Below the pieces are notes generated by a model, which ran no database searches, had not been told where the DNA came from, and saw nothing but the letters and a program-made list of their open reading frames with translations. A stretch of 64,000 nucleotides of DNA from Tetracentron sinense (taxonomy: Eukaryota > Streptophyta > Magnoliopsida > Trochodendrales > Trochodendraceae): NCBI GenBank assembly GCA_015143295.1, contig CM026571.1, positions 10,668,501 to 10,732,500 on the forward strand, read 5' to 3'. Both the position numbers and the translations under genes were made by a program. Below, piece after piece: positions 2,657-54,886 of this stretch. Positions within the stretch are counted from its first letter, which is position 1, and the number at the start of each line of letters is the position of its first letter.

Positions 2657-2687
<31 letters not shown>

Positions 2688-4933: not shown

Positions 4934-5099
4934 TCCCGACCTAGCCTAGCAGGAATTCAGATCTGAAGAAATGAAAACAACAAAAATAGGGTTTTTTCTC
5001 TTTTCTTTAGACAAGCAAGCAAGCTTACCAAGTTCGTTAATGGCTGCTCTGTTTCTCGAATCAGCAGAACGACATGGCTGCTCTGTTTCTCGAATCAGC

Positions 5100-8335: not shown

Positions 8336-9187
8336 ATGACAGTGCATCCCAAAATTCGTTCAGTGCGCCTTAACACTTACATTTGTGTTCCCATGTGACT
8401 GGGAGTTTGATTGCACTATTCTTTGATATTTTTTAAGTCATTTATGAAGGCATTTAAAATTTAGGTAATATTTTAATTAAAATTTGATGAATTTATTTTT
8501 ATAATGCAAATAATTTTTTTTTGTTCCCTCTAAACATGATTTTGTTATTTATGATCTTTAGAATAGATTCTGGTTGAATGTTGCCAAACGGGTTTTCAGG
8601 ACAAAATTGATCTTCAGAATACTTCCTCAAGAAAAACAATTTTTTTTAGAACAAGAGAATCACAAGAATTGATGCCAAACGGGGTCTAAAACTGCCAAAA
8701 CTGGACCCTTTTCAAAACCGGCCTGAAAACCGACAGAACCAATCGTTTCAACTAGAGAACCGGTGATAAAAACTAGTAGAACTAGAAGAATCGACCAAAA
8801 AAAGGGGAAAAGAGGGGAAAGGAAAAAAAATTAATATATAATAAAAGGTCACAATCGAACCGGTCAACCAACTAGTTCAATCGCTGATCCAATTATGGAA
8901 ACATTGCTAAAAAGGTTGATTACCGATCCAATTATGCAAACATTGATGAAAAGGACGCTTGGTGAGTATTAAAGGGTCAAGATGCCTTCCACGCCACCCT
9001 ATGAGGAGTGGACTATTGCTCTTTCACACATGACGAGGAGCTCTGCTCAAAGGTCTTGAAACAGAGCTCTGCGGCTCCATCTCATATTTAAATTCTTAGT
9101 TTATATGTGAAGGATGGTCATCAAGTCGAGATTCACTCACACTTAACACAATTCTTTACACAATGAGGAGTGCTTAGGCCTTTCTTA

Positions 9188-20299: not shown

Positions 20300-20693
20300 G
20301 GAGTCAAATCCTCTACGGTGATAACCGGATTTGGCAAATCCGGTTATCACCCCTAGAGGTCGCCACGTGTCTCCTTTGACACCCCTTAACCATGGATAAG
20401 GTTCACTCACCCCTAGGGTTCACCCACCTATTTTTGGTTTTTTTTTTAAATATTAATTCTTTTTTTAAAATTAAAAAACTGTTTTTAGAGTTTTTTTAAT
20501 ATTAAAAACAGTTTTTTTATTTTTAATAAAAGAATTATTATTTTTTAAAAAAAAACCAAAAATAGGTGGGTGAACCCTAGGGGTGGGAAAACCTTACCCA
20601 CGGTTAAGGGGTGTCAAAGGAGACACGTGGTGACCTCTAGGGGTGATAACCGGATTTGCCAAATCTGGTTATCACCGGAGATGATTTGGCTCC
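20300..20693. mobile_element. Mutator-like foldback MITE
   Basis: Perfect 9-bp target duplication TTAGGATGG (20291-20299 and 20694-20702). Both ends start GGAG.CAAATC and each end contains its own palindrome (CCGGATTTGGCAAATCCGG on the left). Arms of about 170 bp are nearly exact inverted copies (CGCCACGTGTCTCCTTTGAC, CACCCCTTAACC, CCTAGGGTTCACCCACCT) around an AT-rich loop. It is the type copy for the arm family found across the window. Confidence 0.92.
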
Positions 20694-23993: not shown

Positions 23994-24509
23994 TGTTGAA
24001 TTTGGCTCAAATTAAAAGAACTCCAGAAGGGGCGATCGATCGCCCACCATGGGCGATCGATTGATGGGCGTGCTGTTTTTCTGAAAAGTACAAAATTTAG
24101 TTTTTTATGCTTTTGGAAATTGCTATTCTGATTGGGGGACTTTCTACTTATATAAGGCTCTTGTTTAGGCCTATATATACTTAGTTATAGGTCTAGGGTT
24201 TGTGATCTTGAAGATCAAAGAATGCTTTTGCATTGAAAGTGGGAGATAATAGAAAATGGTTAAAGCATACTAGAGCTTGTAAAAGGTTTAAAGGAGGATA
24301 GATATGAATTTTTCTTTGGGTTTTTATTGAAAAGGTGAGTTGAGTGCTTTTGTACTAGTTCCTCAAGGTTTCTGTGAATAAAGAAGTGATCAGATCTTGA
24401 CCCATGGACGTAGGCAAGTTGTTGTTGAACCACGTATATCTTTTGTGTTATCTTGTGAGTGTGTGTTTTGGTTTATTCTTTTTCGTCTGGTTTTATTATT
24501 TCTCCAACA
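23994..24509 (+). repeat. copia 5' LTR
   Basis: TG..CA-bounded LTR followed after two bases by the Met-tRNA primer-binding site. It holds a GATCGATC dyad module (about 24033-24085) and a TATATATAC promoter-like stretch near 24171. It matches 26265-26780. Confidence 0.92.
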
Positions 24510-26264: not shown

Positions 26265-26780
26265 TGTTGAATTTGACTCGAATTAGAAGAACAACAAAGG
26301 GGGCGATCGATCGCCCACCAAGGGAGATCGATCGCCAAGCGCGTTGTTTTTCGGAAAAAGTGCGAAATTCAGTCTTTTATGCTTTTGGAAACTCCTATTT
26401 TGATTAGGGGACTTTCTAATTATGTAGGACTCTTGTTTAAGCCTATATATACTTAGTTATGGGTCTAGGGTTTGCGGTCTTGAAGATCAAGGAATTTTTT
26501 TGTATTAGAAGTGGGAGATAATAGAAATGGTTAAAGCATATTAGGGTTTGAGAAATGTTTAAGGGAAGATAGATAGGGATTCTTCCTTGGGTTTTCATAG
26601 AGAATGTGATTTGAGTGCTTTTGTACTGGTTCCTCAAGATTTCTGTGAATAAAGAAGTGATCGAATCTTGACCCATGGACGTAGACAAGTTGTTGCCGAA
26701 CCACTTTATATCTCTTGTGTTCTCTTGTGGGTCTGTGTTTTGGTTTATTCTTTTCCGTCTGGTTTCATTATTTCCCAACA
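26265..26780 (+). repeat. copia 3' LTR
   Basis: Same length (516 bp) as the 5' LTR, preceded by the purine tract TATGGAGATT. Its GATCGATC dyad differs from that of the 5' LTR at several positions. The next base starts a 110-bp copy of the 5' flank. Confidence 0.92.
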
Positions 26781-27687: not shown

Positions 27688-28073
27688 TAGGGTTGTAAAC
27701 GGATCGGATTTGGACTTGATCTGCCTAGATCCGAATCCGATCCGATCCGATTAAGAATCCGACAGATCCGAAATCCGTCAGATCATGAATTAACCAATCT
27801 GAATCTGATCCAATTACAAATCCAAGACCCGAATCCAATCCGATTAACATTAATATATTTAAAAACTAATATTTTAATTTTAAAAACTATGATTAGTATT
27901 GTAGTATATTTGTAAAATTATATAAATATTATTATTGTTATATATAATTTAATCATATCGGATCACTATAGATCCAAACCCGATCCAATTATAATCGGAT
28001 TAAAGATCTCGGATCCGATGGATCTATAATAGGATTAGGATACGGATCAAGATCCGATCCATTGACAGCCTTA
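27688..28073. mobile_element. hAT-type MITE with GATCCGA interior
   Basis: Perfect 8-bp target duplication GGGCAAGG (27680-27687 and 28074-28081). Ends TAGGGTTGTAAACGGATCGG and the inverted TAAGGCTGTCAATGGATCGG. The interior is built from ATCCGA/GATCGG permutations around an AT-rich centre. Confidence 0.9.
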
Positions 28074-29903: not shown

Positions 29904-30284
29904 GGATTAATGAAAACATGAGAGAAAGGGAGGGAGAAGCCCTTTTTATCCTTGTTTGTGGTTGTAGGGGGTATTTTGATCTTTGAAGAAATGGGGTTTA
30001 CTGCAACCTCAATCTAGCCTAAATCTGATATCCAGACCGTTCTAAATTGAGTTATTTTTGGAAGAAATGATTCAAAGAATACAAGAAAGAAAAAGGAGAA
30101 AATAAGGAAATGATTCAGAGGGAGAGAAGAAAGAACGATGAAGAAAAGTAGTGACAGAATGTTTTTCCTTGATGAATCCTTTACTTTCTCTCTCTGTAAA
30201 TTCTTTTAAAAATCTGGTTGTTCTTGGGAAATCTTCTGGGAACTCAAGGAAAGTCTCTTCTCATCAACAAGGAGGGGTCACCTC

Positions 30285-30292
30285 TATTTATA
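30285..30292 (-). promoter_or_regulatory. TATA box of the 3' LTR
   Basis: TATAAATA on the minus strand, the equivalent of 42873-42880 in the 5' LTR. If active here it would drive transcription out into the left flank. Confidence 0.55.
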
Positions 30293-30697
30293 GGTGATTA
30301 TCAAAATTGTAACCAACTTGTACAGCTGTCATAACCGTTTTTGTAACCGACTTTTAGAGAGAAAATATTGGATTCCATCAAGATAAAGGCGTTTTGTCAC
30401 CATACCTCCTTTAAGCTTTTATGACCAAAGCTTTCAGATATTTTCTTCAAAGGTTAAAAGCGGTATTCATAATATCCATCTTTTAACAAATTCTATCTAA
30501 GCCCTCCAAACCACAACTCATCATCCTCCCCCAAAAGCAATTGGTAACTACACCGTGAAGGCGGGTCATACGCTTTCATGGTGTACTGTCCTGCTGAGGT
30601 AATATATTAGTGTTCAGACAGCAACACTCCTCTAGAGTAATAATCATGATAATATTAATAATAACGATGATGATAATCATCTAATAATCATCTCAAG

Positions 30698-31007
30698 TCC
30701 AATAGGGAAATCATAGGTGTTGGACGAGGACACCCTTCCCGTAACTCAGGTCCAATAGGGAAATCATAGGTGTTGGACGAGGACACCCTTCCCGTAGCTC
30801 AGGTCCAATAGGGAAATCATAGGTGTTGGACGAGGACACCCTTCCCGTAGCTCAGGTCCAATAGGGAAATCATAGGTGTTGGACGAGGACACCCTTCCCG
30901 TAACTCAGGTCCAATAGGGAAATCATAGGTGTTGGACGAGGACACCCTTCCCGTAGCTCAGGTCCAATAGGGAAATCATAGGTGTTGGACGAGGACACCC
31001 TTCCCGT
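30698..31007. repeat. 53-bp tandem array, six copies (3' LTR)
   Basis: Units start at 30698, 30751, 30804, 30857, 30910 and 30963, each containing TCCAATAGGGAAATCATAGG and GGACGAGGACACCCTTCCCG. The junction variants (AACTC, AGCTC, AGCTC, AACTC, AGCTC) are in the same order in the other LTR at 43286-43595. Confidence 0.97.
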
Positions 31008-31285
31008 CAGGCCTTAAGAGAAACTGAGGAAAAATCCATCCTCAATGCTTTCTCCCTGACTGTCAGCCCAGGAAGTAATCCATGCTTCACTGGAATAGGT
31101 GATGAGGGGAAACAACCACACTCATTCCCACGGGGGAGGTACCAATCCATACCGTTCACCCCTGACAAAACAAATCTCCTTTCTGGCAGAAGTCCTCAGA
31201 AAAGCATACAAGGAGGGTACAAATCTATACCACACCTATCATCATAAGAAAGGCGTTGTAAACCAGAGCGAGGCACTGAAGTCAT

Positions 31286-31455
31286 ATAGAATATCCGAAG
31301 GCGTTGAAGTCTGAATCAACATCAAAGGCGTTAAAGCTTGAAACAATATCCAAAGGCGTTAGAGCCTGAAACAATATCCAAAGGCGTTAAAGCCTGAAAT
31401 GATATCCAAAGGCGTTAGAGCCTGAAATAATATCCAAAAAGCGTTAGGACTTGAA
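31286..31455. repeat. 28-bp tandem array (3' LTR)
   Basis: About six copies of AAAGGCGTTAGAGCCTGAAA plus eight bases (CAATATCC-like), with variation at the edges. The same array is at 43874-44043 in the other LTR. Confidence 0.93.
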
Positions 31456-31771
31456 TCTGTGCCAATAGCGTGAAAGGCGCAATAGTTTCATCTTTCATTA
31501 GTGACATAAGGGTAAAATTGTCATAAATGAGCAAAAAAAATCCTTTGTATGAACTAAAAACATAAGAGCTTAAAATCATTGATCATTAATGACTAGAATC
31601 ATTTTTATCAGATAAACATGGAATTCTGTTAATCAATTCCCAAAAGGATTTTAGTATGTGTAATATGCTAGAACGTCCTTTGAGCCACGTGTCATTATTT
31701 TATTGAATTATGAACAACGTCCTTAAATTCAAAATTTCACAAATCAAATTTTTCAATAACCATCATCAACA

Positions 31772-31790
31772 TTTTAGCCCCCTGTCTGTG
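31772..31790 (-). promoter_or_regulatory. polypurine tract of the gypsy element
   Basis: On the minus strand CAGACAGGGGGCTAAAA runs directly into the 3' LTR start TGTTGATG, the expected position for plus-strand priming. Confidence 0.75.
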
Positions 31791-32040
31791 AAGGCGCTTT
31801 TAGGCTTAATCTTACTCTAAAAGCGTCTGAGCAGACAAACCATCATGACAAAAGGAGTTCATTAAATAATATACTATCATAAATTTGGCGTCTGAAAGAA
31901 ACGTCTTTTCGGATCCTGCTTAAAATAGTTTTGCCACATTTATAGCCAATAAGATCATGTAGCCAGCCTGTCAAAGTCATTATGATCGTACCCCTTTTTT
32001 TTGAATTTTGAATCAAAACGTGCTCCTTGGAAACCGCATA

Positions 32041-32519
32041 TCATAAATGTTTAATCATTATAAAAGCAAATAATCAGTTCTTTATTGTTTTACTGTTCAT
32101 CTTCTTCTTCGTGCAAGCATACTTTGAGGTTTTTATCTTTCCTCTGTGCTCGTGTTTTCATTGATCTTATTGTGGTTTTCAAGGATCTTCAATCTTTATT
32201 TGGATTTCCAGGACATCTTCTTAGAATTCTGGTGAGTCTTTGCTTCCTTACTTTTTTGTTTATCATTTCTATTTGATTGCTCATACTTATGCTTGCTGTT
32301 TTTTTTTTATTATATTATTTTTCGTCATTGTAGAAATTTTGATCATCTGTAAATTATGTCATTTTATCTACTTTTTATTCTTTTATTGTTGTTATTATAT
32401 GTATGTTACTGTTTTTTTTTTTTTTTTTTTTGTTTCATCATTCATTTTCATCACCATTTTTTTTTAGAATACACTGTAATTTATTTATTTTTATTTCTGC
32501 AACTTTTACGCTTTCAGCT
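32041..32519 (+). promoter_or_regulatory. promoter and leader of the antisense gene
   Basis: TATAAA at 32059-32064 lies about 460 bp before the start codon and outside the LTR. A good donor (CTG|GTGAGT at 32232) and acceptor (TTTCAG at 32512-32517) frame a pyrimidine-rich 286-bp candidate leader intron, leaving two bases before the ATG. This suggests the gene carries its own RNA polymerase II promoter. Confidence 0.6.
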
Positions 32520-35500
32520 ATGGCATCTTCTTCTCAAAAAAATATTTTAAGTAACGAATTTTGGGATTCAGCTATGCATCATTCTTGGGATACCGCTGTT
32601 CCTCCAGATGGATGGTCATTGCCCTATGGTGACATCGATGGAACTAAAGGATTTTGTCCACCTCCTTTTGCTACTACTATGTTCAGAATAGAAAGAAAAG
32701 ATTTCACGCTTTCTCAGGTTAATTTTAGTTCTCACAGCGGTTGTACCAAGGAGTGGACAGCTTGGTGTGATTATATACTCACTCACCCAGAGTATGGGCC
32801 AAAACTTCATGCAGCTGAGATTTTTAAAGCTATAGAGCTTTCGAAGGATTTTGAGATTAGGAAAGATACAGATAGTTTATCTCAGTTAGTTACTAGGTGG
32901 AACAGTCAAACTCATACTTTTATTACTTCATGGGGAGAAATCACCCCTACTTTGGAAGATGTGATGGCGTTATGGAGATTACCCGTTTTCGGGAATAATG
33001 ACATACAAGACATTGTTTTGAGTAGAGAAGAGATAAAAGCGTCAAGACTTTTGCATGCTCTGGTTTGGGAATCGAGAGTAAATCCAGTTTGGGGAGCTTC
33101 AAAGGAGTCTCATGCAAGGCGGCCAAATTTCTACGGCTGGGTACGCTATTTCTTCAGGGAGAAAGGTCCTGTGAACAAAGAGACAGGAGTCAGAGACTAT
33201 CAATATGGAAAGGAGTACAAGTCTCCTTTAGAGTTGACAGCGTTCATCTGCATGTGGCTGTCTAGATATGTCTTTGAAGGCGCTCCTACTGACAAAGTTT
33301 TGGATAGATTATTTCCATTGGCTTTCCGCCTAGCTGACGGTCAGAGTTTCCCTCTTGGAATTTATTTTTTGGGAACTTTATACAAGAATTTAGATCAAAT
33401 CCATAAGTGTCAGGCCTGGTCAGCAGGTTCTTTTCTCATAGAATCATTTGTTCATACCGCTTTTCTTCAAATGTGGTTATGGGAACGTTTTCCCGGTTAT
33501 GCGCCTTCAGCTAGGCAGTTTTCTCCTTTGCAACCTGATGATACCGCTGTTGAAGATCTCCCAAGTCCAAGGGCATGGCGGTGGAGTAGTATTGCCAGAA
33601 AGAAGGATGCGTTGATCTTTGATTTTATTGACAAGGAGAAATGCTTCTGCTTCAGACCTTACATTGAACTTTCAAGAGGTATTGAAAGATTCTTTTATCA
33701 TTCTGAGGAGCCTTTATCTTTCATAGGCATGAGTACTGAGGAGAGAGCAGAAGTTTCTTTGAAGGATCTTCACTGTTTTGCCATTTTGTCCAAATGTCAT
33801 TTGATCGGTTTATACAGCGTTGATGGCGGTAAAACCAACAGTTTCTGCCTTGAATCTTACAATCCTGATCGGTGTCTGAGGCAATTTGGGCTCGATCAAG
33901 GCGTTCCGGATGGTACAGCTGAATCCTTTTCTCTAAAGAGAACCATGAAGGCTTTCATTCTGGAGAGTTGGTCCTTAAACTTAAGGCCATCTGTTGCCGG
34001 TTTTTACTTGGCTGGGGAGCATAGGATAGGCAGATGTACGAAGAACTACCAGCTTTTCTGGAAAGCTTGCATTGCTACCTTCAAAACCTTTGTTCAGGGT
34101 CCGCCAATGCTCAGTCAAACTGTTAATCTGGCTATGGACAAAGAGAAATGTCTGAAAGAGCCCCCTGGTGCAGGCAAGAAAAGGAAAGCGGTAGCTTCTC
34201 CTCACAAGAAATCTAAATCAAAACCCACTGCTGGAGGTTCTTCAGAAATCCGAGAGGAAAACATTACTCCTCCTCAACCTGCAATTATTACTGCTCCGAA
34301 GGCGGCTACTCCAAGAGCGCCTAGAATCAAAAAGATTGCAATAAAAAAGAAGGCACCTCCTTCTAAGAAGCGAAAGAGCCAATCAGTAAGCAAAGCTTTT
34401 TATAATTAAAGCATTTTTCTTATTCATACGCTTTTCAATTTTTCATTTGTATAATTTTTTTGTCACTTATATATATATATTTTTTCTTGATCTGCCACAG
34501 GATCCTTCTTCTGATAGTGAAGATAACGAGCCTTTGATTGTGCGCAAGCAGAATCTTCAGACTCAACATGAGTTAGGAAGAACTGAGGCTTCTGTCACTC
34601 AGGAAAAAAGCACAGCACCGCTTTCGGATGTTGGTGCAGGGAGCTCTGGAACTCCAACTACTCCAGTGGGACTCAGCATCCCTGAAGATAATGTTGCCGA
34701 TATTCCTTTCCCTCCATCGGCGGAAGCAAGAGTACAAGTTGAGAATTTGGCCAATGTTTGGCCTGAGAGTGAACCTAGTTCCTCTCCGCTTTCTAAAAAG
34801 AAAGATCAATCTGCTAAAGCTTCTGGTGTTCGGAAAACTGCAAATCCTGCCAGAACTATTGACATAGCCAGAGCGTTAACATCTCTGAAGAGAATGAGAT
34901 CGCAAGCTATCAAGGCGAAGTCGCTTCTTCAGCAAAGGACAGCGCAATCTTCATCACCTCTTATGATTGACGCTATTGATGATTCTGAGAGCGTAGGTTA
35001 GTAGCAGTTTAAAAAGTATTTCATCAATATTCATGCTTATATGCTTATCATTACAATCATTATAGTGCTCTAACAGTATGTTTTATTTTGAAGGCCCTTC
35101 TGAAAGCGTTCAAGCTGAAATACCAGAAAACATTGCTCCTGCAACAGTTGAGGTCTTTTCTGATGATCTTCCCAGAGACAAAAACGCTGTTGAGGCTGAA
35201 GTGCATAATTTTTTTGATGAAAGAGCTTCTGGAGTTGAAACCTCAGAACAGCTTATGGATGTGGACCCTCCTTCAGCCAGTGAGATAGCCTTTTTCTCTT
35301 CTGTGGTTCAAAACTCTGAGCAGCAGCCTTCTGAAGATCTTCCTGTAATCATATCAGAAACTTCTACTCCTCTTGACAACACTTCTTCTGTTGGTAAAAG
35401 CGCTCACACACCGATATCTTCAACTGAGAACATCAATGTTCAAACGATTGCTTCTACTGAAAGCGTTATCATCGGCTTTCCAGAACAGTTTGTTGAGGAG

Positions 35501-36274
35501 GAGAATATTAATGCTGAAACTGAAGTTGCTCCAAGAAGTATTCATGAAGATACTTCAGTCATTGGTTCCAGTATGGAGACCGCTTCTTCAGAATTGTCCG
35601 CTTTTGTGGGAATTTTTGTGAGTGAGGATGCTATTACTCCTTCCACTTCAACTGCGCTGACACCAACTGATTCCTCGGATGAAATTTTAAGGCGTTATCC
35701 TGTATCTGAAAGCTCTCTTCCTTTATGGTCAGAAATAGTAAAGCGTTACAAGGATATAACTTCCTCTTGTTCTTTGAAGAACCCTATCATCAGGGCGGGC
35801 TGTATAGAAACAGTGTGCTCTATCATTCGGAACATCAGAGATATCAAGCCTCATCTTACGCCTTTGAGGATGAAGACCTTTGAGGATTGGGGGCAGGAGC
35901 TGAAGGAGTTAGAGGATATTAATGTTAATGTGAAATGGTTAACAGATTTTCTGAGTAGTTTATCTGTTACATTTTTCCAAGCCAAGAGCTTTGCCAGGCT
36001 GAATAGTTCTTATAAAAATAAAGTGGTCAAAGCGGAAGAAATCAAGAAAGCGATATCAAACGATCAAGATAATATTCATATGATTCGTCAAGAGATTGCC
36101 CGCCATCAAGCCATGCTGGAAGAAAAAGAAAAAGGAATAAAAGCTGCTCAAGATAGTCTGTCAGTTCTACAAGAAGAAATCAAAGCAGATCATGAAGAAT
36201 ATATTCGTTTAAAGGCTTCTGCTGAAAGACTTGTATATCTAAATGAGAGAGGCTTTACTGCTGATATTTTGTAA
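32520..36274 (+). CDS. plant mobile domain (PMD) protein encoded antisense in the gypsy element, three exons
   Basis: Exons 32520-34385, 34501-34996 and 35094-36274 join in frame across GTAAGC..CCACAG (115 bp, phase 0) and GTTAGT..TTGAAG (97 bp, phase 1), giving 3543 nt and 1180 residues. Exon 1 starts MASSSQKNILSNEFWDS and carries the PMD (aminotransferase-like) region from about residue 105; RWNSQTHTFITSWGEITPTL and EDVMALWRLPVFG match the family hallmark. Residues about 550-622 are Lys-rich (KKRKAVASPHKKSKSK, KKIAIKKKAPPSKKRKS) and look like nuclear localisation signals. Exons 2-3 are Ser/Glu-rich and disordered, ending in a coiled coil (about 1080-1170). All three exons are intact. Cellular PMD proteins (MAIL1/MAIN) act in gene silencing; a role here is inferred. 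It ends 74 bp from the integrase stop, tail to tail. Confidence 0.88.
34386..34500 (+). other. intron 1 of the antisense PMD gene
   Basis: GTAAGC donor and TGCCACAG acceptor, T-rich with a (TA)n stretch; phase 0. Without splicing the frame closes at 34409. Confidence 0.85.
34997..35093 (+). other. intron 2 of the antisense PMD gene
   Basis: GTTAGT donor and TATTTTGAAG acceptor, 97 bp, phase 1. Splicing rebuilds a Gly codon and avoids the TAG at 34999-35001. Confidence 0.85.
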
Positions 36275-36348
36275 AAGCTTTTCTTTATTCTTTTGTAACC
36301 TTTGAAATTTCATATGAATACAAAAGGAGGATTTTGTTACTTTTCTTA

Positions 36349-38427
36349 TTAAGCATAGTACTTTTTTAACCATTTTACATTGATAGGATCATGTAATACT
36401 TCACCAGATAGTGTAGACAAAAGACAATAACCGCTGTCAAAACTTTGTCTTATCAAGAATGGCCCTTCCCAATTAGGAGTAAACTTTGCCACTTTTGTAC
36501 CATTCCTGATATGAATAGCTGTTCGAAGGACCAGGTCACCCTCCTTTAGAATTCTATGTCGTACTGCTTTGTCATACGCTTTAGCAACTCTTTTTTGATA
36601 CGCTTTTGTCTTTATAGCTATAGCTTCACGCTTTTCATCCATAACTTCTAGCTGAGCTAATCTAGTAGCTTGGAGGCATGCCTCTTCTCCATCAAATACT
36701 TCAATTCTTGTAGATGGTATCTTAACTTCCAGAGGTACAACGGCTTCTGTCCCATATACTAAAGAGAAAGGGGTAACACCTGTTGCAGTCCTTGCTGAAG
36801 TTCTGTAAGCCCAGAGTGCTGTTGGAAGTCTTTCACACCACTTTTTATGAGCTCCTTCTATCATTTTTCCAATTATCTTCAGGATAGTCTTGTTAGTAGC
36901 CTCTGCTTGCCCATTCCCTTTAGGATAATAGGGGGTTGACTTCTTGTGTTTGATATCATATTTCTCCAGTAATTCTCTCACATTAGAATTTATGAAAGGC
37001 GTTCCATTATCAGTGACGACTTCCTTTGGTATCCCAAAGCGGCAGATGATATTTTCTTTAATAAACTTAGCCACCATGATACCTGTAGCCTTTCTTAATG
37101 GTATAGCTTCTACCCACTTGGTGAAATATTCAGTAGCCACAAGTATCCAAACATATCCTTCAGCAGGGGGATTAACAGGTCCAATTAAATCTAGCCCCCA
37201 AGTATGGAAGGGCCAGGGCGTAGAAACATACCGTAAAGATTGTGCAGGTGCATGAATAACATTCCCTCTTATCTGACACTGATGACAGCTTTGAACATAT
37301 AAGTGTGAATCTGCCTCCATGGTAGGCCAATAATATCCCAACCCCAAAATGTGTTGAAACAGCTTTCTTTTTCCTTGGTGAACGCCACAATCTCCACTAT
37401 GAGCTTCATGCAATGCTATTTCGATCTCTTTTCCAGTCAAGCATTTGAGAGCAATACCATTGTATCCTTTTCTGAATAATTCTCCTTTGTCAAAATAGAA
37501 TTTGGCAACTTTCTTCTTAAACTTGAAGGATTCCTTTTGATCAGTAGGCATTATTCCATCTGTGAAGTAGTCATTGTATGGTTTTCTCCAATCTTCCCAA
37601 GAATTTGTAAAGTGACATTCTTTTTTATCTGGCAATATTTGACAAGCAGAACATTCTTTCTGTAACATAGCAGCATCTTTTTCCATTGTTGGCCAGTATA
37701 TTCCAAAACGCTGTAACCTCCTATACAGACTAACAGAAGGATTATACCCACATATTTTTGTGTGGATTTGCATCATTTGTTTCTTAGCTTCTTTTGCTCC
37801 AACACATCTCATCAAGACTCCTTCAGGCCCTTTGAAATACAGATCCCCATTTATCTGTAAGAAATTTTTTAAGACTTTCAGTGTTGTAGTAGGGACCACT
37901 GTTGAATCATGAAGGCAAAAGACATCCTTCAAAATTGGTTCTCTCCAATCTGTTTCTTCTGATTCTGTGTCGCATAATTCTTCTATCAGCGGTGTAGCTA
38001 TTATACGCCTTTCAATTACCACCTGAGAAGATTCTCCTTCAAATATTAACTTTGATGCCAAAGTAGCAAGTGCATCAGCATGGCGGTTTCTTGTACGCTC
38101 TTGATATTTGAATTCTATTTTATCAAAATTAGTCATTATTTTTTGAACCGCTGTTCTGTAGGGAGCCAAACCAACATCTTTTACATTGAATGACCCTTCC
38201 ATTTGACTAATTACCAAATTGGAATCTCCTATTACTTTTATTCTTTTGGCCTTTAACTCTTTAGCAATTGACAAGCCTATGAGAAGAGCTTCATATTCTG
38301 CTATATTGTTAGAGCAAGGAAAATCCAATTTGAAAGAAAAAGACATTACCTCACCCCCAGGAGCTTTTAACACAATACCTGCCCCAGCTGAATCTGCAGT
38401 TTTAGATCCGTCAAATACATGAACCAT
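36349..38427 (-). CDS. gypsy pol: second (archaeal-type) RNase H and integrase
   Basis: 692 residues open. The N-terminal archaeal-type RNase H has all four acidic residues (D6 in FDGS, E44 in AEYEA, D68 in GDSN, D118 in HADAL). Two zinc-binding modules follow, ending ECSACQ (about 221-263) and SCHQCQ (about 340-386). The integrase core has D413 (WGLDLIG), D473 (VTDNGTPF) and E509 (GNGQAEA), with exactly 35 residues between the last two. The C-terminus ends NVKWLKKYYA, usual for gypsy integrases. The frame begins just after a one-base shift relative to RT, so the real product would be part of a longer polyprotein; the ATG at 38427 is probably not a native start. Confidence 0.95.
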   Translation of the reverse strand: MVHVFDGSKTADSAGAGIVLKAPGGEVMSFSFKLDFPCSNNIAEYEALLIGLSIAKELKAKRIKVIGDSNLVISQMEGSFNVKDVGLAPYRTAVQKIMTNFDKIEFKYQERTRNRHADALATLASKLIFEGESSQVVIERRIIATPLIEELCDTESEETDWREPILKDVFCLHDSTVVPTTTLKVLKNFLQINGDLYFKGPEGVLMRCVGAKEAKKQMMQIHTKICGYNPSVSLYRRLQRFGIYWPTMEKDAAMLQKECSACQILPDKKECHFTNSWEDWRKPYNDYFTDGIMPTDQKESFKFKKKVAKFYFDKGELFRKGYNGIALKCLTGKEIEIALHEAHSGDCGVHQGKRKLFQHILGLGYYWPTMEADSHLYVQSCHQCQIRGNVIHAPAQSLRYVSTPWPFHTWGLDLIGPVNPPAEGYVWILVATEYFTKWVEAIPLRKATGIMVAKFIKENIICRFGIPKEVVTDNGTPFINSNVRELLEKYDIKHKKSTPYYPKGNGQAEATNKTILKIIGKMIEGAHKKWCERLPTALWAYRTSARTATGVTPFSLVYGTEAVVPLEVKIPSTRIEVFDGEEACLQATRLAQLEVMDEKREAIAIKTKAYQKRVAKAYDKAVRHRILKEGDLVLRTAIHIRNGTKVAKFTPNWEGPFLIRQSFDSGYCLLSTLSGEVLHDPINVKWLKKYYA

Positions 38428-40058
38428 TCCTCTTCTGCTTCAATAGTCATTGCTTCAGGGAATTCTCCTGGTAATTCTTCTCTTAATATCAAATCATCAT
38501 TTCCTGGGAAATTTGCCAATAGATCTGCTACTGCTTGTCCTTTGATGGCACGAGGGCAAAGGCATGTAATGTCAAATTCTGATAATGAAAGGAGCCACTT
38601 AGCTGCTCGTCCTGAAAGAACTGGTTTTGACATGAGATATTTGATTGGATCAGATTTTGTCATCAGAAAAATCTTATGAGATAGTAAATAATGACGGAAT
38701 TTTTGTAAGGCATAGATCAAAGATAAACAACTTCTTTCAATCCGAGGGTATCTCAATTCTGCATCTCTGAGAATTCTGCTGAGATAGTATATTGGCCGCT
38801 CACAACCAGACAAATCTTCTTGGGCTAGAAGAGCTCCAACAGCGGTTTCTGTTGAAGCCAGATACAGGACCAAAGGCTTCTTGGGGATTGGTGCCATCAT
38901 AGTTGTTGTTGAACTCATCATTTGTTGAAGTTGTTTGAAAGCTTTTTCATGTACTGATTCCCATTTGAATACACAGTTCTTCCGTAGGAGCGGCATAAGG
39001 GGTACTGTGACAGCTGCTAGTCCTGGTATGAATCTTCTTATATAGGATACCTTCCCTAAGAAACTTTTCAACTCTTTGACTGTGCTTGGGGCTGTCATGG
39101 ATGCAATTGCTTGAGCTTTTGTAGGATCAACATCTATACCTTGTCTATTCACAATGAACCCCAGGAATTTGCCTGCAGACACTTTGAAAGCGCATTTTAA
39201 CGGATTCATTTTTAACTGATAATGGCGGCATCGTTGAAAAACTCTTCTTAAATCCTCAACATGACTGCAACGCTTTCGTGATTTAATAACAATGTCATCC
39301 ACATAATCTTCCACTGTATTATGGAACATATCATGAAAAATGGCTGTCATAGCTCTTTGGTAAGTAGCCCCGGCATTTCTCAACCCAAATGGCATAACTG
39401 TATAATAAAAATTTCCAATTGGTGTCCGAAAGGCGGTTTTTTCTGCATCTTCTGCTGCCATCTTAATCTGATTATAACCACTGTAACCGTCCATGAATGA
39501 AAAAGCATCATGCCCTGCTGTTGCATCAACTAATAGGTCCATATTGGGTAGAGGAAATTCATCTTTTGGGCATGCCTTGTTTAAATCCCGGAAATCAACA
39601 CAGCAACGAATTTGCCCATTCTTCTTTTTGACTGGTACAATATTGGCTAACCAAGTTGGATGCTGAATTGGCTTGATAAAACCTGCTTTCAAAAGCTTTT
39701 CAACTTCTATTTTAATTTGATCTTCAATATCTGGTCTGAATTTTCTTGGCATTTGCTTCATTGGTACATATCCTGGCTCAATATTCAATTTATGTGTGAC
39801 CAATGTAGGATCCAACCCCGGCATTTCTTCATAATTCCATGCAAAAATATCTCGGTACTCTTTGAGCAAATTTATCAATTCTTCTTTTTCTTTTGGGGTT
39901 AACTTGGAACTGATAAGTACCGGACGCTTTTCTGATAGACTTTCTACAATGTTTACTTCTTCAAGGCTTTCTTGTACCGCTTTTACACCATCCTGCATCT
40001 GTTCTGGCGCTTCCCCAATTTCGCTTGTTTCTTCTGTTTGAAATATTTGATCCATCAC
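38367..40058 (-). CDS. gypsy pol: reverse transcriptase and degenerate first RNase H
   Basis: RT spans about residues 110-300 with VDFRDLNKACPKDEFPLP, FMDGYSGYNQI, MPFGLRNAGATYQRAM and the catalytic DYVDD (251-255). The following RT-linked RNase H (about 395-520) reads YLASTETAVGALLAQED where active enzymes have DAS, so the first catalytic Asp is absent; ERPIYYLSR and RYPRIERSCL are kept. The frame opens without interruption from the gag stop codon at 40103, so translation probably reaches it by stop readthrough; no ATG is needed. It runs out after EEEWFMY because of a one-base frameshift near 38414. Confidence 0.95.
   Translation of the reverse strand: MMDQIFQTEETSEIGEAPEQMQDGVKAVQESLEEVNIVESLSEKRPVLISSKLTPKEKEELINLLKEYRDIFAWNYEEMPGLDPTLVTHKLNIEPGYVPMKQMPRKFRPDIEDQIKIEVEKLLKAGFIKPIQHPTWLANIVPVKKKNGQIRCCVDFRDLNKACPKDEFPLPNMDLLVDATAGHDAFSFMDGYSGYNQIKMAAEDAEKTAFRTPIGNFYYTVMPFGLRNAGATYQRAMTAIFHDMFHNTVEDYVDDIVIKSRKRCSHVEDLRRVFQRCRHYQLKMNPLKCAFKVSAGKFLGFIVNRQGIDVDPTKAQAIASMTAPSTVKELKSFLGKVSYIRRFIPGLAAVTVPLMPLLRKNCVFKWESVHEKAFKQLQQMMSSTTTMMAPIPKKPLVLYLASTETAVGALLAQEDLSGCERPIYYLSRILRDAELRYPRIERSCLSLIYALQKFRHYLLSHKIFLMTKSDPIKYLMSKPVLSGRAAKWLLSLSEFDITCLCPRAIKGQAVADLLANFPGNDDLILREELPGEFPEAMTIEAEEEWFMYLTDLKLQIQLGQVLC
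38411..38417 (-). other. frameshift between RT/RNase H and second RNase H
   Basis: EEEWFMY in the RT frame and FDGSKTADSAGAG in the next frame overlap at TATTTGACGG (minus strand). One base is missing in the T-run relative to a continuous frame. No obvious slippery heptamer is present, so a mutation is more likely than programmed frameshifting. Confidence 0.8.
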
Positions 40059-40091
40059 GGGAATCTGATTTTCTTTTGATGAATCAGTTTC

Positions 40092-40103
40092 CTTTGATTG
40101 TCA
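40092..40103 (-). promoter_or_regulatory. candidate stop-codon readthrough signal between gag-protease and pol
   Basis: On the minus strand the gag stop reads TGA followed by CAA TCA, matching the CAR-YYA context of TMV-type readthrough. The reading frame is the same before and after, with no second stop through the whole RT frame. Removal of the stop as part of an intron, as in Ogre elements, is the alternative. Confidence 0.65.
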
Positions 40104-42503
40104 TAAGATATATACAACCCTTCCATCTGGTTGCACCACTCTTCTACAGCCCCCAGTTCTTGATTCTTTGATAGCATTCCCCCTTAGAATTTCTGTTTTC
40201 ACACTTTCGTCTCGGGGTCTTTTTGAGGCCTTTGAAATTTCTGATGGCGTTAGAATAGTGGATGATGGTAGCATAACTCCTTTGGTCTTTTCAAAAGCGG
40301 TTTCACCTTCTTCAGCCAACTCATCATAAAACAATGCTTCTGAAATATGAGCTTCGGCTTTATCAAATGGTGTGGCAGTTGCTAGTATTCTGATGACTTT
40401 CCCCTTGTATGTTCCTTTAACACATTGATGAAATGTTGATGGTATTAGCTGGAACTTGTGAATCCAAGGGCGGCCAAGAAGAATATGATAGCTTACATTG
40501 GCTTCAATAACATGGACTCTTATTGCTGAATTTATTGGCCCCACTTGAAGATTAATAGTAGCATAGCCAATAGTGTTCTGGCACTGTCCTCCAAATCCTG
40601 AAATTTCTATTGGTTGCTTAGAAATTTTTGAAGGATCTAATCCCATTGCTATTGCTGTTGATAATGGGATAAGGTTCAAAGAAGACCCAGGGTCTATCAG
40701 TGCTCTTTTTGCTTCAATAGAATTTATTAAAGCTGTAACATACAAAGGCTTGTTGTGAGCTAACGATGAAGCTTTCATGTCATCAGCAGTAAAACTCACA
40801 TCTTGAATTTCCGGCATTGCTTTTCTTGTAGCAGAATAGGCAAGAAAACAATGTTCTGAATGAGCTTCTGCAACTGTTGTCAAAGCCGCTGTTGCAGCTA
40901 TTCTTGCCGCTTTTGAGAAATGCATCTGGTCAAAGAAGTTTTTAAACTTTGAACTCTGTGAAAGAGTTTCTATTGCTGACTGATTATTAAGGATGATTTC
41001 TTCTTCAACTTCTTTTTCTGTCGTAATTGCTGAATTATGACAGACCATAGCAACCACATCTTTCGCTTTATGATTTGGCAAAGGATCCTGATGGACAGAT
41101 CCTTCAGGATTAGTTGAGATTTTCAGGTGTCCAGCAGCTATTTTGTCATTAAAAATCCGCCTTAGAGAGAAACAATCTTTTGTTGAATGGCGTATGGTTT
41201 GGTGATACACACAGTATTTGCTGCTTCGTTTGTCTTCTTCTGTAGGCTTTTGGAATGGTGATGGTAAGTACAAAACGCCATCAGCAATCCATACTTCCAC
41301 AATTCGTAGTACTTCAGCCATGCTACAGGGAAAAGGAGGTGGAATGCTTTCTGGGTTGTACTTTGGTTTTTTGTCAGACTGATAAGAAGTATTTTTCTGA
41401 AACGGCCGCCTTCCAGAATTTTCTGCCGCCATTGCTGATTCTCTCTTATCTCTCCTACCATATCTATCTTCGTACCTTGGTAGGGTTGCTCTTGATATGA
41501 CTGTGTTGAGCCTTTGAGAAACATCATAAAGCTTTTCAAAAGAAGGGATAGTAGCTACCTCCAAATAGGCTCTGTATTCTTTTGCTGCTCCATCAACACA
41601 TATTTGTACAAGTTGCTCCTCAGTTGTTGGTTCATGACAATCTAAAACCAAATATCGAAAGCGGCGAACATATTGTGTCAGATCTTCATTAGGTCTTTGC
41701 CGCTCTTTCGACAAGGTATTGAGAGTAACACGGTCTTCTACAGAGAAAAACTTCTTGGAAAAGATAGTGACCATTTCTTCCCAAGAGTGAATAGAGTTTG
41801 GAGCCAAAGTTGTGTACCAAGTGAAGGCACGATCAGTCAAAGATTTAGCAAATTCGCGGAGACGAAGCTCTTCATTGTTAGCATATCTGCTTAATGCATC
41901 AGTGAAGCGCATTACATGCTCTCGAGCATTTCCAGTTCTTCCATTGTACAGAGTGAATTGGGGCGTGATATATCCTACTGGATATTCCATTCTCATGATT
42001 CTTGCTGAAAAGGGAGGTCTAGCATCGAAAGCATTTGAAAGTCCAGAGCGTTTTGCTTGCTCCTTTTCAAACATTTCAGAGAAATCCTCGGCTGTCATAT
42101 ATGAGGAATGCCTCCCTTCTTGCTCACGATGATTGCAGGGTGGAGAAGAAGGAATAGGATCTTTCCTGGGAGGATTATTGTGCATGTCATTTTCTTCGTC
42201 ATGTTGAGATGGAGAAGGTGTACGCTCCTGCATCCTCTCTGAATTGCGAACATTATCTTCACGATGGGCTTTTTTGAAAAACTCCTGCATTTGTTTTTCT
42301 GATGCTGCTAACTGAGCTGCTACCTGAGTTTGGATAGCCTGCATCTGGGCTTGCATCTGTACTTGAGTTGCCTGAAACTGAGCAAGAAAAGGCCCAAGAA
42401 CAGCAGAAAGATCAGGAACTTCCACTCTGGAAGTATGAGATTCTTCCCTATTTTCTTCTTGAACAACATGCGCTTGGGACGAAGCACCTCTTTTAGTCAC
42501 CAT
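40101..42503 (-). CDS. gypsy gag and protease
   Basis: 800 residues from MVTKRGASSQ. Residues 35-75 are Gln-rich and probably helical. The gag domain covers about 185-340 (REHVMRFTDALSRYANNEEL, FAKSLTDRAFTWYTTL, VRRFRYLVLDC). A single Cys/His cluster CVYHQTIRHSTKDC lies at 431-444 in place of a classic zinc knuckle. The aspartic protease covers about 585-690 with ALIDPGSSLNLIPLS (active Asp 604) and HILLGRPWI. The start lies 27 bases after the primer-binding site, so there is no additional upstream frame. The frame is intact and ends in TGA, followed in frame by pol. Confidence 0.95.
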   Translation of the reverse strand: MVTKRGASSQAHVVQEENREESHTSRVEVPDLSAVLGPFLAQFQATQVQMQAQMQAIQTQVAAQLAASEKQMQEFFKKAHREDNVRNSERMQERTPSPSQHDEENDMHNNPPRKDPIPSSPPCNHREQEGRHSSYMTAEDFSEMFEKEQAKRSGLSNAFDARPPFSARIMRMEYPVGYITPQFTLYNGRTGNAREHVMRFTDALSRYANNEELRLREFAKSLTDRAFTWYTTLAPNSIHSWEEMVTIFSKKFFSVEDRVTLNTLSKERQRPNEDLTQYVRRFRYLVLDCHEPTTEEQLVQICVDGAAKEYRAYLEVATIPSFEKLYDVSQRLNTVISRATLPRYEDRYGRRDKRESAMAAENSGRRPFQKNTSYQSDKKPKYNPESIPPPFPCSMAEVLRIVEVWIADGVLYLPSPFQKPTEEDKRSSKYCVYHQTIRHSTKDCFSLRRIFNDKIAAGHLKISTNPEGSVHQDPLPNHKAKDVVAMVCHNSAITTEKEVEEEIILNNQSAIETLSQSSKFKNFFDQMHFSKAARIAATAALTTVAEAHSEHCFLAYSATRKAMPEIQDVSFTADDMKASSLAHNKPLYVTALINSIEAKRALIDPGSSLNLIPLSTAIAMGLDPSKISKQPIEISGFGGQCQNTIGYATINLQVGPINSAIRVHVIEANVSYHILLGRPWIHKFQLIPSTFHQCVKGTYKGKVIRILATATPFDKAEAHISEALFYDELAEEGETAFEKTKGVMLPSSTILTPSEISKASKRPRDESVKTEILRGNAIKESRTGGCRRVVQPDGRVVYIL

Positions 42504-42529
42504 TTTCTCTCAAAAATTGTTACAGAATT

Positions 42530-42546
42530 CCCCAGCAGAGTCGCCA
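42530..42546 (-). promoter_or_regulatory. gypsy primer-binding site
   Basis: On the minus strand TGGCGACTCTGCTGGGG lies four bases after the 5' LTR. Its TGG start fits a tRNA 3' CCA. Tat/Ogre elements often use a similar sequence; which tRNA it pairs with (probably Arg or Asp) I cannot fix. Confidence 0.85.
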
Positions 42547-42872
42547 AAAATGTAGGGGGTATTTTGATCTTTGAAGAAATGGGGTTTACTGCAACCTCAA
42601 TCTAGCCTAAATCTGATATCCAGACCGTTCTAAATTGAGTTATTTTTGGAAGAAATGATTCAAAGAATACAAGAAAGAAAAAGGAGAAAATAAGGAAATG
42701 ATTCAGAGGGAGAGAAGAAAGAACGATGAAGAAAAGTAGTGACAGAATGTTTTTCCTTGATGAATCCTTTACTTTCTCTCTCTGTAAATTCTTTTAAAAA
42801 TCTGGTTGTTCTTGGGAAATCTTCTGGGAACTCAAGGAAAGTCTCTTCTCATCAACAAGGAGGGGTCACCTC

Positions 42873-42880
42873 TATTTATA
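42873..42880 (-). promoter_or_regulatory. LTR promoter TATA box
   Basis: TATAAATA in CACCTATAAATAGAGG on the minus strand, a strong plant TATA box about 325 bp inside the gag-proximal end. It would start the genomic RNA near 42845. Confidence 0.7.
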
Positions 42881-43285
42881 GGTGATTATCAAAATTGTAA
42901 CCAACTTGTACGGCTGTCATAACCGTTTTTGTAACCGACTTTTAGAGAGAAAATATTGGATTCCATCAAGATAAAGGCGTTTTGTCACCATACCTCCTTT
43001 AAGCTTTTATGACCAAAGCTTTCAGATATTTTCTTCAAAGGTTAAAAGCGGTATTCATAATATCCATCTTTTAACAAATTCTATCTAAGCCCTCCAAACC
43101 ACAACTCATCATCCTCCCCCAAAAGCAATTGGTAACTACACCGTGAAGGCGGGTCATACGCTTTCATGGTGTACTGTCCTGCTGAGGTAATATATTAGTG
43201 TTCAGACAGCAACACTCCTCTAGAGTAATAATCATGATAATATTAATAATAACGATGATGATAATCATCTAATAATCATCTCAAG

Positions 43286-43595
43286 TCCAATAGGGAAATC
43301 ATAGGTGTTGGACGAGGACACCCTTCCCGTAACTCAGGTCCAATAGGGAAATCATAGGTGTTGGACGAGGACACCCTTCCCGTAGCTCAGGTCCAATAGG
43401 GAAATCATAGGTGTTGGACGAGGACACCCTTCCCGTAGCTCAGGTCCAATAGGGAAATCATAGGTGTTGGACGAGGACACCCTTCCCGTAACTCAGGTCC
43501 AATAGGGAAATCATAGGTGTTGGACGAGGACACCCTTCCCGTAGCTCAGGTCCAATAGGGAAATCATAGGTGTTGGACGAGGACACCCTTCCCGT
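43286..43595. repeat. 53-bp tandem array, six copies (5' LTR)
   Basis: Units begin at 43286, 43339, 43392, 43445, 43498 and 43551, with the same order of variants as in the 3' LTR. The array lies upstream of the LTR TATA box, where promoter-enhancer repeats commonly sit. Confidence 0.97.
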
Positions 43596-43873
43596 CAGGC
43601 CTTAAGAGAAACTGAGGAAAAATCCATCCTCAATGCTTTCTCCCTGACTGTCAGCCCAGGAAGTAATCCATGCTTCACTGGAATAGGTGATGAGGGGAAA
43701 CAGCCACACTCATTCCCACGGGGGAGGTACCAATCCATACCGTTCACCCCTGACAAAACAAATCTCCTTTCTGGCAGAAGTCCTCAGAAAAGCATACAAG
43801 GAGGGTACAAATCTATACCACACCTATCATCATAAGAAAGGCGTTGTAAACCAGAGCGAGGCACTGAAGTCAT

Positions 43874-44043
43874 ATAGAATATCCGAAGGCGTTGAAGTCT
43901 GAATCAACATCAAAGGCGTTAAAGCTTGAAACAATATCCAAAGGCGTTAGAGCCTGAAACAATATCCAAAGGCGTTAAAGCCTGAAATGATATCCAAAGG
44001 CGTTAGAGCCTGAAATAATATCCAAAAAGCGTTAGGACTTGAA
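43874..44043. repeat. 28-bp tandem array (5' LTR)
   Basis: Same GGCGTTA(G/A)AGC-based units as at 31286-31455. Confidence 0.93.
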
Positions 44044-44364
44044 TCTGTGCCAATAGCGTGAAAGGCGCAATAGTTTCATCTTTCATTAGTGACATAAGGG
44101 TAAAATTGTCATAAATGAGCAAAAAAAATCCTTTGTATGAACTAAAAACATAAGAGCTTAAAATCATTGATCATTAATGACTAGAATCATTTTTATCAGA
44201 TAAACATGGAATTCTGTTAATCAATTCCCAAAAGGATTTTAGTATGTGTAATATGCTAGAACGTCCTTTGAGCCACGTGTCATTATTTTATTGAATTATG
44301 AACAACGTCCTTAAATTCAAAATTTCACAAATCAAATTTTTCAATAACCATCATCAACAGTGGT

Positions 44365-53692: not shown

Positions 53693-54886
53693 GGTAAATT
53701 ATACTGACCTCCCTTGAGGTTCAGTGAAATTACAAAAACATCATCTCTTGTTTCTAAAATTACACTACTCTCCGATTTGGTGAAATTATTAAAAAAAAAC
53801 CTTCCTTATTTTTAAATTACATTGGTTTCCCCTAAAGTTTGGTGAAATTGCAAAAAACTCATTTTTTAAAAAATGAAATTACACTATTCTCCCCAATGAA
53901 GCCCGTCAAGTTGACGTCATTAATGAATGATGCTTTTTACGCTCTTACCCCATAATTTATTTACTCGAGAAAATAATGTCGTATAACCCAGTTCACTGAC
54001 TTCAAAAAGGGTAATTTCAGTATTTTAAAATGTTTAAACTATGACTTCATCAAAATCGACCCATGTCACTAATAACATACAACAAAAGGAGAATTTGTTA
54101 TCGACAACTAGGGTAGTGTAATTTCGGAAGACAAGTGCTAGCCATACTCTTGGGCTTTTTATACTCTTAGTCGTAGTCAACCTAGTGCCCCAAAAGCAAC
54201 ATGTTAAAGCACACACTTTTTCAAAAAGTTGGGACACTTTTTCAAAAAGTTGGGACACTTTGTTGGCTAAGGTTGAGGCAGGGCAAGGTTTTTAATTTCG
54301 AAATTCTCGGCGATTTCGGCCAGCCAACCCGAACCGAAATCCCGAAATATTGCAGGATTTCGACGAAATTTTGAAATTCGAAATATTAATATTTTATTAT
54401 ATATATTAAAAATAATATTTTAATAAAATTTATATAAATATTATTATTTTATTTTTAAAATTAATATATAAATTTTCGAAATTTCATGAAATTTCAATAA
54501 AATTTTCGGAATATTTCGAAAATTTTCAAAATTTTAATAAAAAAAAACTATTTAAAAATAAAAAAATATCAGATTTCGGCCGAAATTCCAAAATCTTTGA
54601 AATCCGAAATTTCACCTGAAATTTTCGAAATTTCGACCGAAATCAAATTTTCGAAATAAACCCAATTTCAATGTCGGTAGGGTTGCCCGAAACCGAAATT
54701 TTAAACCTTGAGGCTGGGAGTAGAAAAGGCCTAAGAGTAGGGCTAACACTTCATTTTGGAAACAATAGGAAGGTTTTTGCAGTTTTACTAAACCTCAAGA
54801 GAGGGCAATGTAATTTCAAAAACAAGATGGGGTGTTTCTACAATTTCACCAAACCTCAAGGGAGGTTAGTGTAATTTACCTGAGAA
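53693..54886. mobile_element. foldback element with internal CTCCCTTGAGGTTTGGTGAAATTAC repeats
   Basis: The left end GGGTAAATTATACTGACCTC has an inverted match at the right (GAGGTTAGTGTAATTTACC). Inside are repeated gAGGTT.GGTGAAATTAC-type units facing each other. A hAT MITE is nested at 54284-54710. A second copy follows directly at 54917-55553. This repeat type is widespread in plants; no transposase is present. Confidence 0.6.
54284..54710. mobile_element. hAT-type MITE with TTTCGAAAT interior
   Basis: Ends CAAGGTTTTTAATTTCG and the inverted CAAGGTTTAAAATTTCG. Flanks AGGCAGGG (54276-54283) and AGGCTGGG (54711-54718) match at seven of eight. The interior is composed of CGAAATTTCG permutations. 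Confidence 0.85.

Follow-up and report, generated by a model that had tools for sequence, protein, structure and literature searches.

Steinbauerova et al. reportedly worked on Gypsy-encoded plant mobile domains (PMDs) in 2011. Retand/Tat elements of the Ty3/gypsy group are described as having ORFs in antisense between pol and 3′ LTR, tandem repeats, and a proposed DNA-related regulatory role, and TRP28 (PF04195) is present in the antisense ORF of 97% of Retand clusters, according to the available text of PMC11963269 (Vicient 2025). Gypsy retrotransposons that encode a PMD have also been published (PMD-A1/A2, PMC5418596). In host genomes, the PMD proteins of the MAIN/MAIL1-PP7L system are linked to the silencing of transposable elements (TEs) and to a promoter motif (PMC7156037, PMC9899485). 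A TE-borne protein with demonstrated binding and demethylation, VANC, is known from VANDAL, a MULE DNA transposon; its family-specific short motif is over-represented in the TE and present in tandem repeats, differs between related families, and is targeted mainly in non-coding sequence (PMC5735166). For the Tat antisense ORFs and the nearby tandem repeats, no function was found in the literature searched, which comprised few subscription papers and excluded preprints.

In this study, we analysed a window of 64,000 nucleotides from Tetracentron sinense (assembly GCA_015143295.1, contig CM026571.1, positions 10,668,501 to 10,732,500), which contains a Ty3/gypsy element with an antisense PMD gene (Table 1). 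The element is young, as its LTRs differ at only 2 of 1809 sites and it is flanked by a 5-bp target site duplication (TSD; GTGGT at 29958-29962 and 44360-44364). It has a dual RNase H, with RT_RNaseH in the reverse transcriptase ORF and RVT_3 before the integrase (Pfam scan), and the combination of an ordinary and a second, archaeal-type domain is a Tat feature (PMC9289625). As in Retand/Tat, the antisense coding region separates integrase from the 3′ LTR, tandem repeats are present, a DNA-related regulatory role is proposed, and the internal region of 10,779 bp is within the reported range of 7,380-12,869 bp. In contrast to Retand/Tat as described in the available text, the antisense gene here encodes a PMD in place of TRP28 and has three exons, the LTR exceeds the reported 315-1,194 bp, and the tandem arrays lie inside it (PMC11963269). 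The 53-bp array recurs with 2.9-8 copies in seven other LTRs. Given the position of the candidate gag-pol TATA box, both arrays would fall in U3.

Table 1 Features of the antisense PMD gene and its host retrotransposon (window coordinates).
Feature	Position	Strand	Basis or remarks
Host Ty3/gypsy element	29963-44359	-	paired LTRs and TSD
3′ LTR	29963..31771	-	1809 bp; U3 end adjoins PMD gene upstream region
Candidate gag-pol TATA box, TATAAATA	30285..30292	-	pattern match; promoter use putative
53-bp tandem array in LTR	30692..31007		6 copies
28-bp tandem array in LTR	31290..31438		TRF, 5.4 copies; second array in 5′ LTR
Internal region	31772..42550		65 dispersed ANRGCGK
Candidate TATA box of PMD gene, TATAAAA	32059..32065	+	sequence; kept across copies
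Candidate leader (5′ UTR) intron	32232..32517	+	GTGAGT...TTTCAG, predicted; ends 2 bp before ATG
PMD gene exon 1	32520..34385	+	622 aa; PMD domain residues 101-514
PMD gene intron 1	34386..34500	+	GTAAGC...CCACAG
PMD gene exon 2	34501..34996	+	no Pfam match
PMD gene intron 2	34997..35093	+	GTTAGT...TTGAAG
PMD gene exon 3	35094..36274	+	C-terminal part; weak PEARLI-4 match, 5e-8
pol ORF, second RNase H (RVT_3) and integrase	36349..38427	-	ORF and Pfam scan
pol ORF, reverse transcriptase and RNase H	38367..40058	-	ORF and Pfam scan
gag-protease ORF	40101..42503	-	ORF and Pfam scan
Candidate PBS	42546-42529	-	adjoins 5′ LTR
5′ LTR	42551..44359	-	1809 bp

The three exons join in one frame of 1180 residues across two introns (115 and 97 bp) with GT...AG ends. 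A sequence-only reading of this DNA had proposed such an intact, intron-containing PMD gene antisense in a young gypsy element and tail to tail with the integrase, and the structure bears it out: the PF10536 profile matches the PMD domain with an E value of 4.2e-47 (161.5 bits, above the curated cut-off of 34.9), and the stop at 36274 lies 74 bp from the end of the minus-strand integrase ORF. The novelty implied by that reading has to be lowered, since the antisense position and Gypsy-encoded PMDs were already published (PMC11963269, PMC5418596); what stands is an intact, selected PMD gene with conserved splice signals. No TRP28 match was found in Pfam scans of exons 1 and 3 at E ≤ 0.01, nor when exons 2 and 3 and the first 100 residues were scanned at E ≤ 0.1. 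Exon 1 has basic NLS-like runs near residues 553-620, and the protein is probably nuclear. A search of solved structures gave a chance match only (mukE, E 0.89), and a single-sequence AlphaFold2 model of residues 81-520 (mean pLDDT 34.3) was set aside.

We aligned 41 copies, namely the window and 40 of 119 matches, which were chosen mainly by score and are thus biased towards well-kept PMDs. All four splice dinucleotides of the coding introns are retained in 40 copies (intron 1 in 40 and intron 2 in all 41). The TATA box and leader intron that the earlier reading had assigned to the gene are similarly conserved, with the TATA box, the donor GTRAGT, and the ATG each in 40/41 copies and the acceptor TTTCAG in 41/41. 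In 21 copies the predicted splicing gives an intact frame; the other 20 are broken. Among the 21 intact copies, dN/dS is 0.16 over the whole gene, 0.06 in the PMD domain, and 0.14 in the last 196 residues; the exon 2-3 part is also under selection (0.21 and 0.27). For comparison, one window-versus-copy pair gave 0.10 for integrase and 0.065 for reverse transcriptase. The PMD gene is therefore under purifying selection, and the dN/dS near 1 with random stops that had been named as counting against the reading was not found, though nearly half of the copies are broken.

The earlier reading argued soundly that introns on the antisense strand would outlast reverse transcription: the genomic RNA would carry them in reverse, so they would persist. 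Since this RNA should be complementary to the PMD transcript along its full length, the overlap should be larger than the tail alone that had been described. Such an overlap could yield double-stranded RNA and small RNAs regulating the element, with the antisense gene acting mainly as RNA; tea PMD genes give 21-nt phased siRNAs (PMC10673657), and the expected genomic RNA would cover the PMD gene here entirely in antisense. However, selection must act on the protein to account for the codon-level constraint, strongest in the PMD domain, and for the intact splicing, and we regard a main role as RNA as scarcely credible.

A short word, ANRGCGK, is dispersed throughout the element, including its coding sequence. 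The internal region contains 65 occurrences (33 on the plus and 32 on the minus strand) versus 6.4 expected, the LTR contains 12 versus 0.9 expected, and the 4.5-kb antisense-gene region contains 26-37 versus 2.8-3.6 expected in each of the 41 copies. At least three occurrences were found in 13 of 14 one-kb tiles inside the element versus 1 of 48 outside; the density falls at the element edges, and the rest of the window has no comparable excess. Single-word scores are also high (up to z 10.5) in some 3.2-kb tiles outside the element, but these reflect local clusters. In the 28-bp LTR array, all five extracted units bear AAGGCGTT and nearly every unit includes ANRGCGK, which is also present in the 28-bp units of seven copies besides the window; conservation in the unit extends beyond the motif. 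Coding exons have an equal or higher density than other parts. Codon-preserving shuffles matched the observed count in 0/2000 cases each for PMD, integrase, and gag and in 8/2000 for reverse transcriptase, and in 0/1000 for the coding sequences of the window and of each of six other copies. The motif occurs on both strands and in several codon phases, which argues for recognition of double-stranded DNA. No preferred spacing was observed in the PMD element, where the 14 pairs within 45 bp show each distance and orientation once. The motif was found and tested on one related family in one genome, and the copies are therefore not independent. An E2F-type site was also weighed and provisionally set aside.

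The internal region is depleted in CpG (observed/expected 0.45), and CpGs within the motif are better kept than others: 30/32 versus 27/48 were retained between the window and locus L021, with significant retention in four of the seven pairs tested, and in terminal comparisons their decay was roughly half as frequent as that of the others (25/1206 versus 74/1877). A synonymous-site test was weak, with p < 0.05 in 2 of the 13 pairs listed and one pair reversed in direction. The CpG depletion and the slower decay in terminal comparisons would suit a mutational by-product, in which CpGs decay except in certain contexts. We nevertheless consider this origin very unlikely. The effect is about twofold compared with a tenfold motif excess, sequence context still matters three positions out from the core (A 70%), the remainder of the window lacks the excess, and a different word marks another family in this genome.

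That word is ACAACG, which occurs in seven of eight TRP28 loci of this genome with 7-28 copies versus about one expected. One of these loci has a 26-bp array of 21.7 ACAACG-bearing units upstream of the TRP28 match, and distances of 26, 17, and 23 bp between motifs are found repeatedly among the loci, partly derived from tandem arrays. ANRGCGK enrichment is absent in most of the eight. Neither word is enriched in the genic PMD, MULE-like PMD, and two copia loci, and no CG word was found in the RVT_3 matches (L064-L071; retroelements or host genes). Motif enrichment and family specificity thus hold within this genome. The dispersed ANRGCGK and the separate word in TRP28 loci are new here relative to the literature searched, and the available text of PMC11963269 makes no mention of a dispersed motif. 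A protein other than the PMD could bind ANRGCGK, whether a transcription or chromatin factor of the host or some other product of the element, and the PMD would then have a different role; the one link between the two is that the motif occurs in the PMD-bearing family and not elsewhere in the genome. This is unlikely in our view: TRP28 elements in the same host bear a different motif, which element-encoded readers fit better than a single host reader.

In our proposal, a Tat-type Ty3/gypsy retrotransposon carries the PMD as an accessory gene maintained by selection, whose transcript would begin beside the 3′ LTR and be spliced at the candidate leader intron and the two coding introns. We infer that the gene is expressed and that its probably nuclear protein recognises ANRGCGK over the whole element and in the 28-bp LTR array, acting on the element's own DNA and keeping it accessible or active. 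A self-recognising reader working like VANC on VANDAL has, in our estimate, slightly less than an even chance of being correct. Judged from sequence, the resemblance covers a protein borne by the TE, a family-specific motif enriched in the element, its presence in tandem repeats, and the use of different motifs by related families. It differs in that VANC is unrelated in sequence to the PMD protein, the motif here contains CG and is also found in coding sequence, and the carrier is an LTR retrotransposon (PMC5735166). The dispersed, family-specific motif indirectly supports the anti-silencing effect that the earlier reading had suggested and that we suppose.

A genic PMD of this genome is a recognisable relative of the element PMD (25% identity, 564 columns, E 1e-31), and host PMD proteins function in TE silencing (PMC5418596, PMC7156037), so the element's protein could instead be a decoy against host MAIN/MAIL1 and PP7L that lifts silencing and does not bind the element, the motif having another cause. 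We give this possibility little credence, as the identity is low, the selected exon 2-3 part has no counterpart established here, and ANRGCGK is left without explanation. The host DOWN motif (CATGCAGTTT, MORC1 promoter; PMC9899485) is a different word and was ruled out as the target.

TRP28 elements of this genome may follow a scheme equivalent to that of the self-recognising PMD, with another protein and another motif. More tentatively still, each antisense protein of Tat-lineage LTR retrotransposons, PMD or TRP28, may read its own CG-containing, selection-written word, in an anti-silencing convergent with VANC/VANDAL. Such element-wide words would span the sense and antisense coding sequences alike and reach tandem arrays close to promoters. 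If this is correct, the long-unexplained Tat antisense ORFs and tandem repeats gain a first role, and plant LTR retrotransposons encode a counter-defence that is sequence-specific. For PMD proteins, which serve hosts in silencing TEs, DNA recognition would become a role to test. With a word that is kept in coding frames, on either strand, and in the LTR array, the antisense protein gains a concrete partner that can be tested.

In addition to the exon structure and selection, we describe block exchange in the PMD gene. Synonymous change is in excess (dS 0.46 versus an intron distance of 0.13; mean pairwise intron distance 0.12-0.13 among the 21 intact copies). Escape from small RNAs was ruled out as its source, as sliding windows and block clustering showed that old haplotypes had been exchanged. 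The gene is reshuffled between subfamilies in haplotype blocks, which shows how such a module can pass between them.

In the stretch that separates integrase from the 3' LTR, the plus strand of the element carries three exons. Joined, they give a 1180-residue frame with a plant mobile domain (PMD; E 4.2e-47), basic NLS-like runs at residues 553–620 and, close to the C-terminus, a weak match to PEARLI-4. The sequence-only reading had described an intact, intron-containing antisense PMD gene in a gypsy element, lying tail-to-tail with integrase across 74 bp; the gap is exact, and the observation is confirmed by the exons, the PMD match and an alignment of 41 copies. The genome holds at least 119 PF10536 matches (117 of 3521 first-look candidates scored). 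The alignment comprises the window and 40 fetched copies of its family, picked mainly by score order, a choice that biases the set toward intact PMDs. Of the 41 copies, 40 retain the full set of four coding-intron dinucleotides and one has an acceptor deleted; the leader donor GTRAGT, the TATA box and the ATG are each kept in 40, and the leader acceptor TTTCAG in all 41. In this score-chosen set, 21 copies have an unbroken spliced frame and 20 a broken one. The PMD gene is a maintained module and not a one-copy oddity. Its introns lie in reverse orientation in the genomic RNA and could for that reason be retained. On the opposite strand, gag-pol is split over three ORFs (36349-42503), two of which overlap in different frames at 38367-38427.

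Features of the host element, its antisense gene and the loci compared (window positions unless otherwise named)
Feature	Position	Strand	Details
Window	C21:10668501-10732500		1.16-Gb genome
Ty3/gypsy element	29963-44359	minus	LTRs 1809 bp, 2 sites different; TSD GTGGT
Three ORFs		minus	gag-protease; RT with RNase H; second RNase H (RVT_3) with integrase
Candidate gag-pol TATA	30292		in 3' LTR copy
PMD gene exons	32520-34385, 34501-34996, 35094-36274	plus
Mosaic part, PMD-domain types	32560-33950		compared across copies
Mosaic part, exon-3 types	35250-35870		compared across copies
TRP28-bearing loci with own dispersed word ACAACG	L057-L063 and L072		same genome

The dN/dS ratio (NG86, pairs of the 21 intact copies with dS>0.05), for which the sequence-only reading had named a value near 1 as contrary evidence, was 0.16 for the whole gene (197 of 210 pairs). 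By part, it was 0.06 in the PMD, 0.19 in the rest of exon 1, 0.21 in exon 2 and 0.27 in exon 3, with 0.14 over the last 196 residues of exon 3. Selection on the encoded protein therefore maintains the antisense gene. In one window-versus-copy pair, the ratios were 0.10 for integrase, 0.065 for the RT part and 0.15 for the PMD gene.

Synonymous divergence along the PMD gene changes in abrupt jumps, and for the window and L045, another copy, dS is 0.51 in the PMD gene versus 0.17 in pol. Block clustering separated the PMD into two main types and the middle of exon 3 into two main groups, and all four combinations are present (exemplified by the window and the copies L047, L015 and L021). Thus, the accessory gene has been exchanged between subfamilies, with old haplotypes reshuffled, likely through template switching during reverse transcription. 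Two copies about 19 kb apart on C7 (L026 and L027) differ by only 0.1% in their antisense-gene regions, which suggests local duplication.

A short CG word, ANRGCGK, is dispersed over the element, with 65 occurrences in the internal region (33 plus, 32 minus; 6.4 expected from dinucleotides) and 12 in the LTR (0.9 expected). The flanks contain 12 in 29,957 bp, where 17.7 are expected, and 16 in 19,636 bp, where 12.8 are expected. One-kb tiles with at least three ANRGCGK make up 13 of 14 inside the element versus 1 of 48 outside, and 103 of 187 internal CpGs lie within GCG/CGC versus 317 of 1011 outside. In shuffles that kept codon use and protein fixed, the PMD CDS count of 31 (shuffled 6.4, sd 2.3), the INT count of 12 (1.4) and the gag count of 13 (3.5) were reached in none of 2000, and the RT count of 6 (1.6) in 8 of 2000. 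The CDS of six further copies has 26–35 words versus 5.5–7.8 shuffled (0 of 1000 each), and the 4.5-kb antisense-gene region has 26–37 versus 2.8–3.6 expected in each of the 41 copies; since the element in the window served to define ANRGCGK and its relatives were scanned for it afterwards, these tests are not independent discoveries. AAGGCG occurs in nearly all of 44 28-bp LTR units extracted from the window and seven copies; the G of its CpG is altered in 6 of 44, and conservation is equal at other unit columns. A second over-represented word, GTACAA/TTGTAC, occurs 13 times in 31772-42550 (3.1 expected).

Between the window and L021, CpGs were retained at 30 of 32 motif sites versus 27 of 48 others (p 0.0003). 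Among seven diverged-copy pairs, the direction was the same in all, with p<0.05 in four, and pol of one further copy retained 15 of 16 motif CpGs versus 16 of 23 others. For degenerate third-position sites in codons that had not changed, 12 of the 13 pairs that include the window or L021 (among 36 computed) agreed in direction, but only two had p<0.05. In terminal comparisons, whose copies are not independent, 25 of 1206 motif CpGs had decayed versus 74 of 1877 others, one copy supplying 13 of the 74. A mutation-context effect may contribute to the motif excess; at about twofold, it cannot suffice for a tenfold one.

The genic or MULE-like PMD loci (L001-L008) have 1–4 ANRGCGK per 3.5–4.1 kb and no CG word in common, and no CG word stood out in two copia loci. 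Single-word scores in 3-kb tiles outside the element reach z 10.5 (ATTTCG), but the words there bunch within a few hundred bases; local clusters lie at 54121-54694 and 27704-28052 (ATTTCG and ATCCGA). Eight loci sampled from 23 matches to TRP28 (PF04195), about 70–91% alike where alignable, show no general ANRGCGK excess (0–8 vs 1.6–3.7 expected). Seven contain 7–28 ACAACG versus about 1 expected, and the eighth (L056) has 3 versus 0.5. In a 9-kb stretch around L072, where no LTRs were found, two tandem arrays (26-bp and 57-bp) upstream of the TRP28 match hold 34 of the 49 ACAACG; the other 15 are scattered over 1001-5000, with zero in 1-1000 or 7001-9001.

An antisense gene under selection accompanies a family word across the whole element, and another antisense protein accompanies another word. 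Retand elements are described as having antisense ORFs, most of them with TRP28, in the interval from pol to the 3' LTR, and a DNA-binding role is suggested for these ORFs (PMC11963269). PMD-A1/A2 clades are reported as Gypsy-encoded only (PMC5418596), Gypsy consensuses of many plants contain PMD (PMC9289625), and phased siRNAs arise from PMD genes in tea (PMC10673657). Among the non-preprint papers searched, none was found to describe a family word dispersed over elements of this kind.

We propose that the PMD protein, with its NLS-like runs, would enter the nucleus, bind ANRGCGK and, via the U3 arrays and scattered sites, keep its own copies active. Both transcripts could be served by a single set of sites, since the 3' LTR places the U3 array upstream of the PMD gene and the 5' LTR places it upstream of the candidate gag-pol TATA. 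VANC proteins of VANDAL transposons offer a precedent, with a nine-base motif, tandem repeats and family-specific demethylation (PMC5735166). The motif finding raises the interest of the antisense PMD gene. The earlier interpretation, of a spliced antisense PMD gene whose protein could counter host repression, is partly supported, with a gene maintained under selection, and is extended by the dispersed family word; binding of the word by PMD is the weak link.

Elsewhere, the window contains an inverted repeat at 20300-20693 (arms of 179 nt, 87% complementary, 36 nt apart) and a direct repeat pair, 87% identical, at 24084-24433 and 26356-26704.
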